From Methylophilus sp. Leaf416 (GTDB taxonomy: Bacteria; Pseudomonadota; Gammaproteobacteria; Burkholderiales; Methylophilaceae): 64,000 nt of DNA. Below the pieces are notes generated by a model. The model had not been told where the DNA came from and did not search any database. It was given only the letters and a program-made list of their open reading frames with translations. Positions 14,468-21,484 of the stretch are shown piece after piece. Each line of letters starts with the position of its first letter. Position 1 is the first letter of the stretch. The stretch lies in the NCBI RefSeq assembly GCF_001424665.1, contig NZ_LMQS01000002.1, positions 1 through 64,000 of the forward strand, given 5' to 3'. A program made the position numbers and the translations under genes.

Positions 14468-15166
14468 CTATGGTGTCCATCTCAACCCAATCGACAACCA
14501 CTGACTCTCACTATCCCCATTCACCTGCTGCCCAATCGTTCCATCAATCTGGAACACCTCCGGCACCAGCGAATACCTTACCCCCAACTGATAAAACGGA
14601 TTCTGCGAATTGTCACCAAACACTTCCGCAATGCCTTTAAATGCGCCACCCAGCTTAAATTCTGCCCCCAAGCCCATGCTGGCTTTAAGTTCTGAAGCCT
14701 GCTTGTCCCGCAACATCCCCATATTCAGGTGCACGATCACATCATCATCGTGCAGCGAAAAAGATACCGGCACATAAAAATAAGTATTACCCAGTTGATT
14801 GGGCCCAGGCTGGATATCTGTGTGCTTGACATGGCCTGCCGCAAATCCTGCACCCCAGCCATTAGTCTCTAGTGGTTTGAATAAGGTTTTGAATTGTATT
14901 ATCCAGTCTTCGGTGCGGTAGTTTTCATCCTGATTACGATAAACGCCGCCACCAAAAGTGATTTCTAAGTTTTCGCCCAAGTTACATGCTGGTAACGCCC
15001 ATGCTTCACGCCCTCCTTCATAGGAACGCATCCAGGTTTCAAGTTGGCAGCTATGGGCATTGGTCAGGCGCGCGTCATCGGTGACTAGAGGGCGTGCAGC
15101 ATAAACACTGTGCGAAAAACACAGCGCTAATATCAGGCTTATACAGATGAGGACAGATTTATGCAT
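14468..15166 (-). CDS. putative outer-membrane protein, function unknown
   Basis: 232 aa. Signal peptide MHKSVLICISLILALCFSHSVYA, then ARPLVTDDARLTNAHSCQLETW and a series of amphipathic strands with aromatic residues. It ends QWLSIGLRWTP, a typical barrel-closing C-terminus. It is probably a small outer-membrane beta-barrel. Two cysteines (SCQLE, LPACN) could form a disulfide. A Pho box lies 28 nt upstream (15194-15211), suggesting induction under phosphate limitation and perhaps a role in phosphate or anion uptake; that role is inference. Convergent with the unknown gene at 13584. Confidence 0.75.
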   Translation of the reverse strand: MHKSVLICISLILALCFSHSVYAARPLVTDDARLTNAHSCQLETWMRSYEGGREAWALPACNLGENLEITFGGGVYRNQDENYRTEDWIIQFKTLFKPLETNGWGAGFAAGHVKHTDIQPGPNQLGNTYFYVPVSFSLHDDDVIVHLNMGMLRDKQASELKASMGLGAEFKLGGAFKGIAEVFGDNSQNPFYQLGVRYSLVPEVFQIDGTIGQQVNGDSESQWLSIGLRWTP

Positions 15167-15193: not shown

Positions 15194-15211
15194 GTGACAG
15201 TTTGATGAAAC
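15194..15211 (-). promoter_or_regulatory. candidate Pho box for the outer-membrane protein gene
   Basis: Minus-strand GTTTCATCAAACTGTCAC matches 15 of 18 positions of the PhoB consensus CTGTCATAAAACTGTCAY. A TAAAAT -10 candidate follows after 11 nt, the spacing usual for PhoB-activated promoters, and the ATG follows at 15166. Confidence 0.55.
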
Positions 15212-15630: not shown

Positions 15631-17109
15631 ATGCTAAACATTACCCAAGACACCCAACTCGCAGCTGTAGACCTGGGCTCCAACAGTTTCCGGCTTGAAA
15701 TTGGCCGTGTGGTCGACGGACAGATTCTGCGCGTGGATTACTTAAAAGAGGCCGTTCGCCAGGGAGGTGATCTTGATGAAGATCGTAACCTCAAGCCTGA
15801 AGGCATAGAGCGCGGACTGAAATGCCTGGCCCGGTTTGGTGAGCGTTTAAAGGGCTTTCCTGCTGAACAGGTGCGCGCTGTAGCGACACAAACCCTGAGG
15901 GAAGCAACTAACAGTGCTGAATTCATTAAGCAAGCGCAAAAGGTATTGGGTTACCCGATTGAGATTATTTCAGGGGTGGAAGAAGCACGCCTGATCTACC
16001 AGGGTGTCAGCCGCATGCTGCCGCAGTCGGATGAAAAACGCCTGGTCATTGATATCGGCGGACGCTCGACCGAATTTATCCTTGGTCAGCATTTCAAAGC
16101 CAACGTTACAGAATCCCTCAGGTTAGGCTCAGTTGGCTGGTCACAAAAATACTTTGCTGATGGCCAGTTAAGTGAGCGTAACTTTGAACGGGCTGAAATC
16201 GCCGCCGAATCTATTATCGATATGATTGCCAGCCGATATAACGGCCACTGGGATGTCGCGTATGGTGCTTCGGGCACGGTCGGTGCCGTAGCCGATGTAT
16301 TGGCTGGCTCAGGATTTTCTGCCGAAAAAATCGAACGTAGCCAGTTGGAATGGCTGAAGCAAACGCTGATCAAAGCTAAAACACCTGACCGCCTGCATAT
16401 GGAAGGGCTGAAGGATGACAGGCGTGCGGTGATCGGTGGTGGCCTGGCCATCCTGACTGCGGTATTCGATACGCTGAATATAGACACCATGAACGTGGCC
16501 AATGGTGCGCTGCGACACGGTGTGCTGTATGACATTTTAAGTCCGGCTGATGCCACCGAAGATTTGCGTTCGGCCTCCATCGCCCGCCTGTGCAAACAGT
16601 TTGGCGTAGAGCTGGAGCATGCGCAGAATGTCAGCAAGGTAGCCCTGCATTTTTATGATGCGATGCAAGCCTGTGATACACAAAAACCTCTGCTGCAATG
16701 GGCCGCACTGTGCCATGAAATCGGCTGGGCCATTTCACATACTGACTGTAACAAGCATGGCGCTTATATACTGGATAACACCGAGCTGATGGGGTTTGCC
16801 CAAAGCGAGCTGCACACCATCAGTCTTCTGGTATTGGGTCATCAAGGAAAATTGCGCAAACTACCTGCGGATTTCGACAACCAGGACCTGGTGTGCCAGT
16901 TGATGGCATTACGCCTGGCAGTGATTTTCTGCCACTCACGCCGGTTGCCTGTGATGAAACATTTACAGCTGATACACGACAAACAGCAGTTTACGCTAGC
17001 GCTGCCAGCACAGTGGGTCAGCCAGCACCCTCAAACGCATTACCTGCTGGAAGAAGAATGCCAGCTTTGGCAAAAACTCGGCTGGCAACTGGAAGCGGAA
17101 TACAGTTAA
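15631..17109 (+). CDS. ppx: exopolyphosphatase (Ppx/GppA family)
   Basis: 492 aa. The N-terminal ASKHA ATPase-like fold shows AAVDLGSNSFRLEIGRV (phosphate 1 motif) and LVIDIGGRSTEFILG (phosphate 2 motif), with VEEARLIYQG between them. The C-terminal half is HD-like (CHEIGWAISHTDCNKHGAYIL). It hydrolyses terminal phosphates from polyphosphate, or pppGpp in GppA members; sequence alone does not separate the two. The neighbouring ppk1 favours Ppx. In ISGVEEAR the catalytic Glu is present. A hairpin follows at once. Confidence 0.93.
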   Translation: MLNITQDTQLAAVDLGSNSFRLEIGRVVDGQILRVDYLKEAVRQGGDLDEDRNLKPEGIERGLKCLARFGERLKGFPAEQVRAVATQTLREATNSAEFIKQAQKVLGYPIEIISGVEEARLIYQGVSRMLPQSDEKRLVIDIGGRSTEFILGQHFKANVTESLRLGSVGWSQKYFADGQLSERNFERAEIAAESIIDMIASRYNGHWDVAYGASGTVGAVADVLAGSGFSAEKIERSQLEWLKQTLIKAKTPDRLHMEGLKDDRRAVIGGGLAILTAVFDTLNIDTMNVANGALRHGVLYDILSPADATEDLRSASIARLCKQFGVELEHAQNVSKVALHFYDAMQACDTQKPLLQWAALCHEIGWAISHTDCNKHGAYILDNTELMGFAQSELHTISLLVLGHQGKLRKLPADFDNQDLVCQLMALRLAVIFCHSRRLPVMKHLQLIHDKQQFTLALPAQWVSQHPQTHYLLEEECQLWQKLGWQLEAEYS

Positions 17110-17173: not shown

Positions 17174-17419
17174 CTAATCCTTTTTCTTCTTCGATTGTTT
17201 TTCATCTTCTTCGCGCAGTTTTGCTACTTTCTCACGCCACTCTTGCAGCTGCTCATCTTCAATCTCCAACTGCAACGCAAGCGCTTCTTCCTGGGTCAGT
17301 TTTTCCTTGATAAATCGTTTAGGCAACTTGCCACCCATGCGTGACAGCACGCGTTCAGCTTCATCAGGGCTGAGTTGTTTCACTTTTTCCAGGTACACTG
17401 GATTTGACTTATCTTTCAT
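17174..17419 (-). CDS. small, highly charged coiled-coil-like protein
   Basis: 81 aa. A first segment (SPDEAERVLSRMGGKLPKRFIKEKLTQEEALALQLEIEDEQLQEWREKVAKLREEDEKQ) is predicted by eye to be almost entirely helical with heptad-like leucines, followed by a lysine tail. No signal or membrane segment. AGGGAG precedes the ATG. It lies 75 nt downstream of the ParA gene on the same strand and may belong to its transcription unit. Family not recognised; a structural or adaptor role is conceivable. Confidence 0.75.
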   Translation of the reverse strand: MKDKSNPVYLEKVKQLSPDEAERVLSRMGGKLPKRFIKEKLTQEEALALQLEIEDEQLQEWREKVAKLREEDEKQSKKKKD

Positions 17420-17494
17420 ATGACTCCCTTTAATTTGATGCTAGCTGCCGGCGTCGACAGCTTTTTTACTCATCGCCTGAAACGACAGGCCTCT

Positions 17495-18115
17495 CTAACT
17501 GTTCTGCAAAATCCAGTCGGTGACCGGATTCCACTGCGCAATATCGATCTCCTTTAAAGAGCCCGACAATTCAAAAATACTTAACCCCTCTTCTGCCGCA
17601 GTGACATAGATCTGCGAAGAACGCAGCATCGACAAAACCGCAAAGCCGGTCTCATCCATAAACGCTAGCAGGCGCTCGGCAGATTTAGTACGCGGCATCA
17701 CACGCATGCCCACCAGCCCGACAAAAGTCTTGTGCTTGCGCACGGCTTTTTCTTCAGCCAGCAAGCTCAGGAAGTCCTGGGTAGCGCCAATATCAAAAGC
17801 AGAAGGTGCAATTGGTACCAGAATTAAATCGGTCTCGGTCACTGCATCAGAAATTTTTTTGTCGCGTAAACCACCGGGGGAATCGGTAATAACCCAGTCA
17901 GCTTTTTGCAAAGCGGATTTACCCAGGTCTTCAGCATTGAATACAGTCGCTACATGCTGTGGACGGCGCGCCAGCCAAGATGCTGACGATTGCTGGCGAT
18001 CAATATCTTCCAGTACAACTTTATGTCCCAATTGCGCCAGATACCCAGCAAGATTGGAGGCGAGAGTCGTTTTACCGCTACCGCCTTTGGTGTTTGCCAC
18101 CAATACCCTGCGCAT
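17495..18115 (-). CDS. ParA/MinD-type ATPase
   Basis: 206 aa. The deviant Walker A NTKGGSGKTTLASNLA with the signature lysine lies at residues 8-16. Walker A' and switch segments follow (VLEDIDRQQSSASWLARRP, WVITDSPGGL), then LILVPIAPSAFDIGAT. Small single-domain ParA proteins of this kind bind DNA non-specifically as ATP dimers and position plasmids, chromosomes or cytoplasmic cargo. There is no N-terminal HTH and no adjacent parB or parS. Its partner is probably the divergent ribbon-helix-helix protein. CAGGGAG precedes the ATG. Confidence 0.9.
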   Translation of the reverse strand: MRRVLVANTKGGSGKTTLASNLAGYLAQLGHKVVLEDIDRQQSSASWLARRPQHVATVFNAEDLGKSALQKADWVITDSPGGLRDKKISDAVTETDLILVPIAPSAFDIGATQDFLSLLAEEKAVRKHKTFVGLVGMRVMPRTKSAERLLAFMDETGFAVLSMLRSSQIYVTAAEEGLSIFELSGSLKEIDIAQWNPVTDWILQNS

Positions 18116-18146
18116 CTCATGCTCCCTGTGTGATGGTGTTGAATTC

Positions 18147-18199
18147 TGTCATGGAAAACAGCCTCTATGACACCATATCAATATGAAATTTTTATGACA
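18147..18199. promoter_or_regulatory. divergent parA / H1-like control region with repeated ATGACA
   Basis: Between the two divergent genes the hexamer occurs three times: TGTCAT at 18147-18152 and ATGACA at 18167-18172 and 18194-18199. The first two are inverted. Ribbon-helix-helix proteins often bind such short repeats, so these may be operators or partition sites. Motif-based inference. Confidence 0.35.
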
Positions 18200-18200
18200 A

Positions 18201-18228
18201 TTGACGCAAAACAAAAACGGTATAAACT
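18201..18228 (+). promoter_or_regulatory. sigma-70 promoter of the H1-like/RHH gene
   Basis: TTGACG (18201-18206), 16 nt, TAAACT (18223-18228), with the start codon at 18260 and CAGGAG at 18248-18253. Confidence 0.6.
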
Positions 18229-18259
18229 GTTTTCACGCAAAAATAAACAGGAGATCCAC

Positions 18260-18757
18260 ATGGCCACTAAACCGGCAGCCAAACCTACGGCAACAAGCAA
18301 GCCAGTAGCCGCTAAAACCCCTGCATCAAGCAAAACAGTAAAACCAGGAACCGCCAAACCAGCGACGGCAGCTTCTACAGCTAAGCCAGTGGCAAAACCG
18401 GTGGCCAAAATTGCGGCAAAACCGGCAACTGTTGCACCTAAAAAAGCGACGCCCGCTGCTCAAAAACCAGTGGCAAAAGTAGTAGGCAAACCTGCTGTGA
18501 ACAGCAGTAAACCTGTGACAGCTGATAAATCAAAAACACCTAAAGTCAAAATGGAACGCGATAGCTTTACCATGCCAAAAGACGAATATGCACAAATTGC
18601 TGCATTGAAGAAACGTCTGGAAGCCGCTGGCAAAGCGGTTAAGAAAAGCGAACTACTACGCGCCGGTTTAAAACTGCTGTCTGGCCTTGATGACACAAAA
18701 CTGAAAGCGGCATTGGCAACAGTACCAACCATTAAAACCGGCAGACCAAAGAAGTAA
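18260..18757 (+). CDS. histone-H1-like protein with ribbon-helix-helix domain
   Basis: 165 aa. Residues 1-~95 are a low-complexity Ala/Lys/Pro tail (AKPVAKPVAK-type repeats) like bacterial H1-like proteins and AlgP. Residues ~98-140 form a ribbon-helix-helix candidate: strand RDSFTMPKDEYAQI, then helices ALKKRLEAAGKAV and KKSELLRAGLKLL. The C-terminus GRPKK resembles an AT-hook. All three parts suggest DNA binding. The start at 18260 has CAGGAG; the frame is open upstream but lacks a ribosome site. It diverges from parA, a common layout for ATPase and adaptor. A strong hairpin follows. Confidence 0.85.
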   Translation: MATKPAAKPTATSKPVAAKTPASSKTVKPGTAKPATAASTAKPVAKPVAKIAAKPATVAPKKATPAAQKPVAKVVGKPAVNSSKPVTADKSKTPKVKMERDSFTMPKDEYAQIAALKKRLEAAGKAVKKSELLRAGLKLLSGLDDTKLKAALATVPTIKTGRPKK

Positions 18758-18905: not shown

Positions 18906-19370
18906 TTACTCCACCAAGTCTGGCGACTGCACGCTGTAGAGTTTGTAAGGCGGGCCGGACTTTGGCAACCGTAACCACCAGACGGCGCCTTTTTTAATAC
19001 TCAGTTGCGTATCTTCCATACCCAGGCATTGGGCAGCCAGTTCGCCTATCCAGGGCTGATGCCCGACCAGCATAATGTGTTCAAACGGGCTCTGCTCAAG
19101 TAATTGCAAAATCGGCTGTAAAGGCCGTTCAGGCGCGAGGCGGTTTTCTTCCTGCCAGCCATCCGCCCAATAAGCGGCCGTTTCCTTGGTCCGCAATGCC
19201 GGGCTGACCATGGCGTAGGTTTGTTTAGGCAGGTATTTCTTCAGCCAGGCCGCCATTTGCTTTGCCTGCTTGTGGCCTTTTTTAGTCAAAGCTCGCTCGA
19301 GGTCAGAATGACCATGCAGCAAGTCTTCTGCTTCTGCATGCCGCCATAAAATCAGGTTACGTACCGCCAT
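18906..19370 (-). CDS. sixA: phosphohistidine phosphatase SixA
   Basis: 154 aa histidine-phosphatase fold. The N-terminal LILWRHAEAED carries the RHG-type catalytic motif. A second histidine lies in MLVGHQPWIGELA, and SPALRTKETAAYW matches the family. SixA removes phosphate from histidine of phosphotransfer proteins (ArcB HPt or NPr in Escherichia coli). It follows ppk1 by 10 nt on the same strand, so the two form an operon. A link of SixA to polyphosphate is not established. Confidence 0.9.
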   Translation of the reverse strand: MAVRNLILWRHAEAEDLLHGHSDLERALTKKGHKQAKQMAAWLKKYLPKQTYAMVSPALRTKETAAYWADGWQEENRLAPERPLQPILQLLEQSPFEHIMLVGHQPWIGELAAQCLGMEDTQLSIKKGAVWWLRLPKSGPPYKLYSVQSPDLVE

Positions 19371-19380
19371 CTCGCAGACC

Positions 19381-21423
19381 CTATAATGAATGATACTGTT
19401 TTAGCAATATCTGCTGGCAAGACTGCAATGGGGCATCGCCTGCCGATTCGCGCACGGCTTTATACACACCCTGCTCAGTCAACTGCCAGGCATCCAGGTT
19501 GTCATCGAGGTATAACTGCAACCCCTCCTGCATAATGCGCAATTGCATTTCAGGGTCAGTGATCGGCCACGCCAGCTCGACACGGCGTATCATATTGCGG
19601 CTCATCCAGTCGGCGCTAGAAAGCCACATTTGGACCTGCCCATCCAGATTGAAATAGAACACGCGCGAATGCTCCAGCAAGCGGCCCACAATTGACCGGA
19701 CACGGATGCGGCCTTTCAGCGCGGGCAAATCTACCGGCAAGATGCAGGCGCCACGGATGATCAGGTCAATCTCGACACCGGCTGCGGCAGCTTTGATCAA
19801 GGCTTCGGTTAATGGGATATCTGTCAGCGCATTCATCTTGGCGATCACGCGCGCCGGTTTGCCTTGCCTGGCCAGGCGTTGCGCTTTACCCAATTGCTTG
19901 ATCATGCCAGCGTGTAGCGTGAACGGTGCCACCAGCAAATGCCGCATGCGCGGCAAGGGCAACTCGCTGGTCAAATGACGGAACAGGGCTTCCATTTCCC
20001 TGGTCAGGTCAGGATTTGCCGTGAGCATGCTCCAGTCGGTATATAAACGTGTCGTTTTCGGATTGTAGTTTCCGGTCGACAAATGCCCGTAGCGATGGAT
20101 GCTTTTCCCTTCGCGACGCATGATCAATAACATCTTGGCATGGGTTTTCAGGCCTACCACACCATACACCACCTGCGCGCCTACGGATTCCAGCGCCTCT
20201 GCCCAGTTGATATTGGCTTCTTCATCAAAACGGGCTTTGAGCTCAACCACTACCAGCACTTCTTTACCACGGCGTACCGCTTCCTGCAGCAATGACAGCA
20301 TGCGCGGATCAGCGCCGGTGCGGTAAATGGTCATACGGATAGCCAGCACATGCTCATCCTTGACTGCTTCTTCCAGCAACTGGATCACTACATCAAAGCT
20401 TTCATAAGGTTGATGTATCAATAAATCACGCTCACGCATCTGCGCCAGCAAAAGAATGTTTTTATTGATGTGTTTAGGCCACTGTGGCTGAAAAGAGGTG
20501 AACTTGAGATGATCGCCTTTTGCCATATCCGGCAGCTGGATCAGGCGGCCCAAATTCACCGGGCCATTCACGCGGTAAAGCGCCAATGCGGGCAGGTTGA
20601 ACTGTTTGAGCAGGAATTCAGCCAGCGCATCATCACACTCATGCGTGACTTCCAGGCGCACTGCTTTACCGTATTGGCGATGGGCAAGCTCTTCACGCAA
20701 AGCCATGCGCAAATTACTTACGTCATCCTCATCAACTTCAAGGTCACTGTTACGTGTGACGCGGAACTGGGAAAAGTGCAGGATTTTTGCACCTGCAAAC
20801 AGCACATGCAGGTTTGAGCGAATAATACTGGTCAGCGATACAAAACATTGCTGGCCTTTACTAATGTTACTCGGCAATTGCAACAAACGCGGCACTACGC
20901 GCGGCACGCGTACGATGGCGATTTTTTCTTCTTTATCAATCTCAATGCGGACAATAAAATTAAGCGACTTATTAGCGACCTGAGGGAAAGGATGCGATGG
21001 ATCGAGCGATACCGGCATCAGAAATGGCAACACTTCACGCTTGAAGTAATTGGCTACCCAACTGATTTGTTCTGGCGTACGCACGGTACCGGAAACCAGG
21101 TGTATCGCTTGCTCGGCAAGCGCTGGCATTAGCGCATCATTAAACAACTCATATTGTTTTGCTACCAGCGCATGTGCCATGCTGGCAATTTGTTCGCAAC
21201 CAGTAGCGGTGACCGGGCCATGCGTCACGCCTTGCTGATGCGCTTCCATTTGCAAAGGCATGCGCACTTCAAAAAATTCATCCAGATTATTGGAGACAAT
21301 GCATAAAAATCGCAGTCGCTCCAGCAGGGGGTAATCTTCGCGTTGCGCCAGGGATAATACGCGCGCATTAAAACTGAGGATACTGAGGTCTCGGTCTAAT
21401 AAAACAGAGGGGTTATTTTTCAT
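19381..21423 (-). CDS. ppk1: polyphosphate kinase 1
   Basis: 680 aa, normal length. Domains in order: N-terminal LLDRDLSILSFNARVLSLAQ; head domain; catalytic C1 with the phospho-accepting histidine in RYGHLSTGNYNPKTTRLYTD; C2 with the second HKD-like motif near LEHSRVFYFNLDG. It makes polyphosphate from ATP reversibly, at the membrane or granule. No Shine-Dalgarno is seen. A candidate -10 (TACAAT, 21431-21436) lies so close to the ATG that the mRNA may be nearly leaderless. A three-repeat Pho box (21458-21484) indicates PhoB control. First gene of a ppk1-sixA operon. Confidence 0.97.
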   Translation of the reverse strand: MKNNPSVLLDRDLSILSFNARVLSLAQREDYPLLERLRFLCIVSNNLDEFFEVRMPLQMEAHQQGVTHGPVTATGCEQIASMAHALVAKQYELFNDALMPALAEQAIHLVSGTVRTPEQISWVANYFKREVLPFLMPVSLDPSHPFPQVANKSLNFIVRIEIDKEEKIAIVRVPRVVPRLLQLPSNISKGQQCFVSLTSIIRSNLHVLFAGAKILHFSQFRVTRNSDLEVDEDDVSNLRMALREELAHRQYGKAVRLEVTHECDDALAEFLLKQFNLPALALYRVNGPVNLGRLIQLPDMAKGDHLKFTSFQPQWPKHINKNILLLAQMRERDLLIHQPYESFDVVIQLLEEAVKDEHVLAIRMTIYRTGADPRMLSLLQEAVRRGKEVLVVVELKARFDEEANINWAEALESVGAQVVYGVVGLKTHAKMLLIMRREGKSIHRYGHLSTGNYNPKTTRLYTDWSMLTANPDLTREMEALFRHLTSELPLPRMRHLLVAPFTLHAGMIKQLGKAQRLARQGKPARVIAKMNALTDIPLTEALIKAAAAGVEIDLIIRGACILPVDLPALKGRIRVRSIVGRLLEHSRVFYFNLDGQVQMWLSSADWMSRNMIRRVELAWPITDPEMQLRIMQEGLQLYLDDNLDAWQLTEQGVYKAVRESAGDAPLQSCQQILLKQYHSL

Positions 21424-21457: not shown

Positions 21458-21484
21458 ATGACAGTTTTATGAAATCGTATGAAT
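21458..21484 (-). promoter_or_regulatory. Pho box (three 11-bp repeats) upstream of ppk1
   Basis: Minus-strand ATTTCATAAAACTGTCAT (21458-21475) matches 16 of 18 positions of the PhoB consensus. A further repeat, ATTCATACG, continues the 11-bp phasing to 21484. It lies 35 nt upstream of the ppk1 start codon, with a TACAAT -10 candidate at 21431-21436. Confidence 0.7.

Follow-up and report, generated by a model that had tools for sequence, protein, structure and literature searches.

In Methylophilus sp. Leaf416, parA and the gene for an 81-aa charged protein that follows it (c81) may form a nucleoid-based positioning module for polyphosphate (polyP) granules, accompanied by a histone-H1-like ribbon-helix-helix (RHH) protein serving as an autoregulated, AlgP-like tether; we consider the chances of this composite reading evenly balanced. 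That polyP is the biological context of the locus is very probable, and that positioning is the job carried out there is about an even call. The genes are located in the window, by which we mean the entire analysed stretch of 64,000 nucleotides, in the interval bounded by ppx and ppk1 (Table 1). The first-pass annotation had placed genes for a ParA ATPase, an H1-like protein and a charged coiled-coil protein between these two genes; all three open reading frames proved to be intact, and the identity of both flanking genes was confirmed by profile matches. Genes were called with a simple longest-ORF script, so that the ORF starts are rough. The labels sixA, ppx, ppk1 and CYTH/CHAD were assigned in our scripts by BLAST at an E-value of 1e-8 (1e-4 in the first scripts), while phoU, pst and rpiA were assigned by eye from the sequence.

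Table 1. Features of the ppx-ppk1 region, with positions counted along the window.
Feature	Position	Strand	Basis
ppx (exopolyphosphatase), conserved locus member	15631..17109	+	profile matches; kept near RHH genes
c81, helical protein of 81 aa rich in charged residues; candidate for ParA partner or granule adaptor	17174..17419	-	co-occurrence, Pho boxes, model
parA, 206-aa ATPase of ParF-like type with a deviant Walker A motif	17495..18115	-	profile and structure-database matches
Pho-box-like site pointing to parA-c81	18183..18200	-	score 13.0 of 16
Predicted palindromic operator of the H1-like RHH gene, AAACGGT-ATAA-ACTGTTT	18215..18232	.	conservation at promoter
H1-like RHH gene, 165 aa, with A/K/P tail, domain of RHH type and a GRP end resembling an AT-hook	18260..18757	+	ORF, composition
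C-terminal RHH-type domain, conserved, ending IKTGRPKK	18536..18757	+	alignment of relatives, weak profiles, model
sixA-like phosphohistidine phosphatase, conserved locus member	18906..19370	-	profile matches; homolog precedes parA in other genera
ppk1 (polyphosphate kinase 1)	19381..21423	-	profile matches
Pho-box-like site before ppk1 (positive control)	21458..21475	-	score 14.0

The parA product carries the deviant Walker A motif KGGSGKTT, and the residues K10, G11, G12, G14 and K15 are invariant among 26 sequences, in agreement with the signature lysine pointed out in the first-pass annotation. Its best match of solved structure is ParF (PDB 4dzz; E 4e-15 over query residues 4-187 of 206). 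In Pfam it matches CbiA/AAA_31, and against the NCBIfam model ParA_partition (NF041546) it scores 126.7 bits, which is under the curated cut-off of 180 bits. D108 aligns with Asp111 of ParF, a residue reported to be important for ATP and ParG contact (PMC7308502). The single ParB_N match of the genome is found on contig C4, where it adjoins a second ParA; on account of this pair, we rejected the idea that the ParA studied here is the chromosome's own partition ATPase. The earlier statement that neither a parB nor a parS is present needs to be amended on both counts, by this ParB_N match and by a possible operator or parS-like repeat at 18215-18232. PHB granules were likewise rejected as cargo in this genome, since it contains no PhaC_N match; the chromosome and PHB granules are thus both disfavoured as cargo. 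In a midpoint-rooted tree of 100 ParA rows, the 38 rows from the family form one clade (support 99/97), and those beside ppk1 or ppx occupy two or more distinct positions within it: the ppk1/ppx rows of the window genus and of g7 share one subclade, in which rows from other contexts are interspersed, and the g20 rows by ppk1/ppx belong to another. A long stem (0.69 changes per column) leads to the ParA proteins found at the Methylophilus ppx-ppk1 locus, as if the protein had changed fast on moving there. At locus L117 (genome G136) two parA-like genes are arranged in tandem, and close pairs are also present in G221, G258, G292, and G321.

Co-occurrence, operon structure and a shared type of promoter site support c81 as the predicted partner of ParA. 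We surveyed 100 genomes of the family in one draw for ParA (an orthologue being scored at 180 bits or more), c81, the RHH domain, and ppk1, and found them in 67, 60, 38 (8 of 24 genera), and 90 genomes, respectively. Both parA and c81 are present in 56 genomes, parA only in 11, c81 only in four and neither in 29 (p 4e-12); with two reduced-genome genera removed, the distribution becomes 56/11/4/9 (p 3e-4), and in both tests the related genomes are not independent samples. Among the four genomes with c81 only, parA remnants persist in G029 and G052 and G045 has a completeness of 78%, which leaves G003 as a clean case. In G029 (C1:1743061-1743970) parA and c81 both have in-frame stops, as if they had been lost jointly. 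The two genes lie within 2 kb of each other in 29 of the 67 parA genomes. In the order, c81 has a narrow distribution (10 of 250 genomes), and where it is found away from parA it mostly has no labelled polyP neighbour, the exceptions being L025 (ppk1), L062 (CHAD), and L249 (phoU). At L062 (4563-6958), c81 has a low-molecular-weight phosphatase gene and then a CYTH-CHAD gene behind it. A point against our preferred explanation is that 12 of the 20 genomes from the two reduced-genome genera contain ppk1 but neither parA nor c81 nor the RHH gene, and that some larger genomes of the family retain ppk1 while lacking parA and c81.

The c81 protein is highly charged (20 K/R and 19 D/E residues among 81 aa), and the helical character ascribed to it in the first pass is reproduced by a structural model with a long C-terminal helix (mean pLDDT 82.1). 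Nothing scored above the Pfam or NCBIfam cut-offs, and a fold search with the model gave no match at E ≤ 0.001. Residue W61, invariant in 13 sequences, sits within the long helix and not at the C-terminus. Fifteen of the 49 c81 ORFs with a locatable core end possess an A/K/P-rich tail of at least 40 aa that consists to 45-68% of Lys, Ala and Pro and has a net charge of +2 to +20.

The distribution of Pho-box-like sites, scored as matches to a hand-made consensus based on E. coli, makes it likely that c81 belongs to the Pho regulon in this family, presumably under the control of PhoB. At family loci, sites scoring at least 12 precede 12 of 13 c81 genes that lead near parA and 11 of 20 that stand alone (11 of 16 genera), 10 of 23 leading parA genes, 7 of 29 RHH genes, 3 of 31 ppx genes and 4 of 47 sixA genes, as well as 39 of 1093 other genes. 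Such sites are absent from c81 behind parA (0/8), from parA behind another gene (0/30) and from CYTH/CHAD (0/28), htpG (0/15) and tpi (0/25) at these loci, and none of eight order-level c81 relatives has one. There is no sign of Pho control for parA in CYTH/CHAD operons. The Pho control of ppk1 on which the first-pass annotation had relied is itself a prediction, and a site of 14.0 in front of the window's ppk1, together with sites before 22 of 31 ppk1 genes in the family (4 of 8 genera), is in line with it. In the window, three sites reach 12.5 or more: before ppk1, in the gap between parA and the H1-like gene with its orientation towards parA, and before a gene at 14468-15166. When the bases of this gap were shuffled 500 times, the score of the site directed at parA was reached once, and at the ten genus loci compared this site invariably scores 12.0-13.0. 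Since ten Markov resamples of the window contained 0 to 4 such sites each, a single site weighs little and it is conservation that counts. The gene at 14468-15166 encodes a protein of 232 aa with a signal-like N-terminus (by eye) and has its site (15194-15211; 13.5 of 16) right in front of it; it is possibly a further Pho-controlled gene.

Gene neighbourhoods connect this ParA with polyP genes. At least 40 of the 67 parA genomes in the family have ppk1 within 6 kb (14), a CHAD match within 3 kb (19), an adjacent CYTH-type gene (6) or ppx (1) near parA, a minimum because CYTH and ppx neighbours were counted at fetched loci only. In 15 further genomes parA is found beside c81 only, and in 12 it is accompanied by none of ppk1, CHAD, CYTH, ppx, and c81; seven of these 12 (G017, G025, G028, G035, G041, G077, G095) lay outside the CYTH/ppx count, two (G048, G057) belong to the window genus, and in G008 sixA adjoins parA. 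Viewed from the other side, the family contains 26 CHAD matches, and 19 of them are no more than 3 kb away from parA. Examples next to parA gave Pfam E-values of 8e-50 and 5e-48 for CHAD and of up to 9e-26 for CYTH; of the six CYTH-type neighbours, three (L016, L020, L022) were scanned with Pfam and three identified by tblastn, and that of L022 has a partial CHAD match as well. At the loci inspected, and apart from one second fragment, the CYTH/CHAD genes begin no more than about 50 bases from parA or overlap with it, often with a sixA homologue upstream, and a c81-parA-ppk1 operon arrangement is also present. The same CYTH/CHAD operon recurs in a neighbouring family (f15), where all five fetched loci (4 genomes) contain CYTH/CHAD and four contain sixA. 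Of the 60 ParA loci fetched from 147 matches in the wider order, eight contain a polyP, phoU or sixA gene at a distance of up to 6 kb, and five of these eight come from f15, so that the link is specific to this lineage and not a property of all ParF-like proteins. The tie of ParA to polyP genes that had been suggested from location is therefore borne out by several arrangements (a CYTH/CHAD operon and a position beside ppk1/ppx in at least two lineages) and by Pho boxes; proximity to polyP genes in relatives is retained within the family and is uncommon in the wider order, so that the refuting condition named in the first-pass annotation, a pair located mostly away from such genes, would apply to ParF-like proteins of the wider order and not to those of the family.

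These data bear on two other views of parA-c81. One holds that the pair is a chance neighbour with some other, unknown cargo and that the polyP biology is confined to the H1-like RHH protein; we judge it quite improbable, given the several arrangements in which parA is found with polyP genes (in a CYTH/CHAD operon, ahead of ppk1, to either side of ppx) and the Pho boxes that c81 has also away from parA, although 74 of the best 80 of at least 583 RHH loci are without a parA nearby and parA and c81 are located elsewhere in many genera. According to the other, ParA moves nothing and instead regulates polyP or phosphate metabolism as an NTPase that acts on PPK1, SixA, CYTH-CHAD or Pho signalling, perhaps via c81. 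The operons with enzymes (sixA-parA-CYTH/CHAD and c81-parA-ppk1) and the Pho boxes would suit such a protein, and regulation and positioning look alike in gene order. However, a ParF-like sequence with a deviant Walker A motif typifies nucleoid-based partition ATPases, and small, charged proteins such as the partner c81 are frequent among positioning adaptors, so that we regard a purely regulatory role as unlikely.

By its distribution, the H1-like RHH protein is best described as an independent member of the ppx-sixA-ppk1 locus. Its composition (Ala 20.6%, Lys 20.0%, Pro 10.9%) agrees with the Ala/Lys/Pro-rich, histone-H1-like tail recognized in the first pass. The full-length protein has no Pfam match at E 0.1 and none above an NCBIfam cut-off. 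When 29 relatives of its conserved domain were scanned to E 1, RHH_1 was found in three (best 0.048), ParD_antitoxin in one (9e-4) and the ParD-type model TIGR02606 in five (best 4e-5). A model of the domain consists of three helices (mean pLDDT 83.6); it gave no match at E ≤ 0.001 in a fold search, and the best hit of a profile search against the PDB had an E-value of 0.083. The K-x-GRP end is invariant in all 29 relatives. Hence, of the earlier assignment, the AT-hook-like end is well conserved, and the RHH domain is matched weakly and in a minority of relatives. The domain is C-terminal in most relatives and N-terminal in 11 of 129.

At least 583 relatives, which have neither a Pfam nor an NCBIfam name, exist in named genomes. 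We examined the best 80 of these loci (L163-L242), those most similar to the window and in part the same stretches as loci of our genome survey: within 6 kb of the RHH gene, ppk1 is present in 70, ppx in 64, sixA in 68 and parA in six, and one of ppk1, ppx, phoU, CHAD or sixA in 73, with the ppk1 figure being biased towards close relatives because of this choice. A fairer figure comes from the order, where the domain is present in 54 of 250 genomes and at 11 of 20 fetched loci a polyP, phoU or sixA gene is no farther than 6 kb from it; some of these RHH genes precede rpiA-phoU-ppx, and one precedes a pst-phoU block (rpiA and pst by eye). Among the matches listed, the prevailing order is ppx-RHH-sixA-ppk1, both in Methylophilaceae and in Comamonadaceae. 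Of the 38 family genomes with the RHH gene, 33 have ppk1 no more than 8 kb from it, and seven of these 33 lack a parA orthologue. The SixA-like phosphatase is thereby kept near ppk1 as well; PPK1 acts via a phosphohistidine, and the SixA-like protein may act on PPK1.

The first-pass annotation had treated parA and the H1-like gene as a pair. Both are present in 30 family genomes, parA only in 37, the RHH gene only in eight and neither in 25 (p 0.05; p 0.37 without the two reduced-genome genera), and in the absence of co-occurrence the H1-like protein is not an obligate ParA partner. The idea that the two genes are one conserved unit was rejected for this reason and for the rarity of parA at the best 80 RHH loci: the RHH gene is present independently of parA and stays with ppk1. 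Among the three genes of the originally suggested system, parA thus keeps company with c81, and the H1-like gene does not keep company with parA.

The promoter of the H1-like RHH gene contains the palindrome AAACNGTNNNNACNGTTT, often as three half-sites in 9-base steps. With at most one mismatch, this operator is found upstream of 96 of 131 RHH genes, many of them closely related, versus 0.05 expected from shuffled RHH upstream regions. It also precedes 17 of 3163 other genes, one of 102 ppx genes and 11 of 121 parA genes, the latter because the intergenic region is shared with the RHH gene. The exact pattern matches once in the window and once in the whole genome, where the reversed control matches once, too, and 12 genomes of the genus contain 1-2 matches each versus 0 to 4 for the reversed control; its rarity alone therefore proves nothing, and its weight derives from place and conservation. 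The ATAA-spaced form is present once in each of these 12 genomes and marks the start of the RHH gene in all seven whose RHH locus was read. A palindromic operator at this promoter is compatible with binding by an RHH-type dimer, and operator and gene together fit a predicted autoregulated, site-specific DNA-binding protein, possibly an autorepressor, with its site in the polyP locus.

The operator and its neighbours also invite a comparison with the type Ib system ParF-ParG of plasmid TP228, in which the RHH protein ParG stimulates ParF through a flexible tail (PMC7308502). Like ParF, its closest solved relative, the window's ParA is small and has its P-loop from residue 10, and an RHH gene is found next door, with the operator located in the shared intergenic region. 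ParA and the H1-like RHH protein might then work as ParF and ParG do, the operator at 18215 being centromere-like and the cargo being the ppx-ppk1 region or granules on it. Outside the window genus, parA adjoins an RHH gene of this kind in L069, L091 and L215, and these adjacencies and that of the window genus fall in three places of the tree, with L069 and L091 sharing a weakly supported group. In contrast to the plasmid system, however, the window system is chromosomal, its ParA stays under the ParA_partition cut-off, its RHH gene is divergently oriented and does not form an operon with parA, and the partner of ParA by co-occurrence is c81; the RHH gene is not conserved with ParA and is usually without parA nearby, and a single operator, not an array, was seen in the window. 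We therefore consider a type Ib-like pair very unlikely, while a looser link between parA and RHH genes is possible. At L215 (3090-4175), from Macromonas nakdongensis, an RHH protein with a C-terminal basic tail is encoded about 10 bases ahead of parA on the same strand.

The positioning module that we favor resembles McdA-McdB, which positions carboxysomes on the nucleoid (PMC13052382), in that a ParA and a small non-ParB partner, adjacent (within 2 kb in 29/67) and co-occurring (56/67 parA genomes), are encoded beside genes of the presumed organelle; the cargo of ParA proteins is often betrayed by the gene neighbourhood (PMC10241942). The two systems differ in that the cargo would here be polyP granules and c81 is no recognized McdB. 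McdB has an invariant C-terminal tryptophan; the tryptophan invariant in c81, W61, is part of the long helix and not terminal. With AlgP and PhaF of Pseudomonas, the H1-like protein shares a Lys/Ala/Pro-rich tail and a polyP link, the likeness being one of composition. AlgP is granule-associated and required for even granule spacing, and has a helical N-terminal domain in addition to its Lys/Pro/Ala tail (PMC9239181). The H1-like protein differs from it in having an RHH-type domain with a GRP end and a mostly N-terminal tail; some c81 relatives, in turn, are similar in layout only to AlgP with its helical N-terminal domain and KPAA-repeat C-terminal tail. CHAD is a polyP-binding module that localizes to granules (PMC6537752), and CHAD or CYTH-CHAD proteins are operon partners of parA in other genera, unlike in the window's genome, which has no CHAD match. 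CHAD-gene deletions in Ralstonia are described in the same source as having no apparent phenotype, which counts against the explanation that we prefer.

In this explanation, parA-c81 would be a phosphate-responsive two-gene operon. ATP-bound ParA would bind the nucleoid, and c81 would ride on polyP granules, in some relatives perhaps by means of its Lys/Ala/Pro tail, contact ParA and stimulate ATP hydrolysis. Granules would thereby be spread and inherited over the nucleoid, as carboxysomes are by McdAB, and in genera with parA and a CYTH-CHAD gene the CYTH-CHAD protein would perhaps be the granule-bound factor. The H1-like RHH protein would passively tether granules, its RHH domain binding the operator and its basic tail, together with the AT-hook, binding DNA and polyP, and would autoregulate its own gene. 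The full combination of an ATP-driven granule positioner (ParA-c81; elsewhere a CYTH-CHAD factor) with an RHH protein that perhaps holds granules at the ppx-ppk1 operator is a more tentative proposal.

According to a 2025 review, it is unknown whether the positioning of polyP granules depends on ATP (PMC13052382), and our search of open-licence papers found no report of a ParA that serves such granules. The gene sets described here provide a directly testable candidate for such positioning in methylotrophs, and they draw attention to an unnamed protein family of at least 583 relatives with a tie to the ppk1 locus in both Methylophilaceae and Comamonadaceae.
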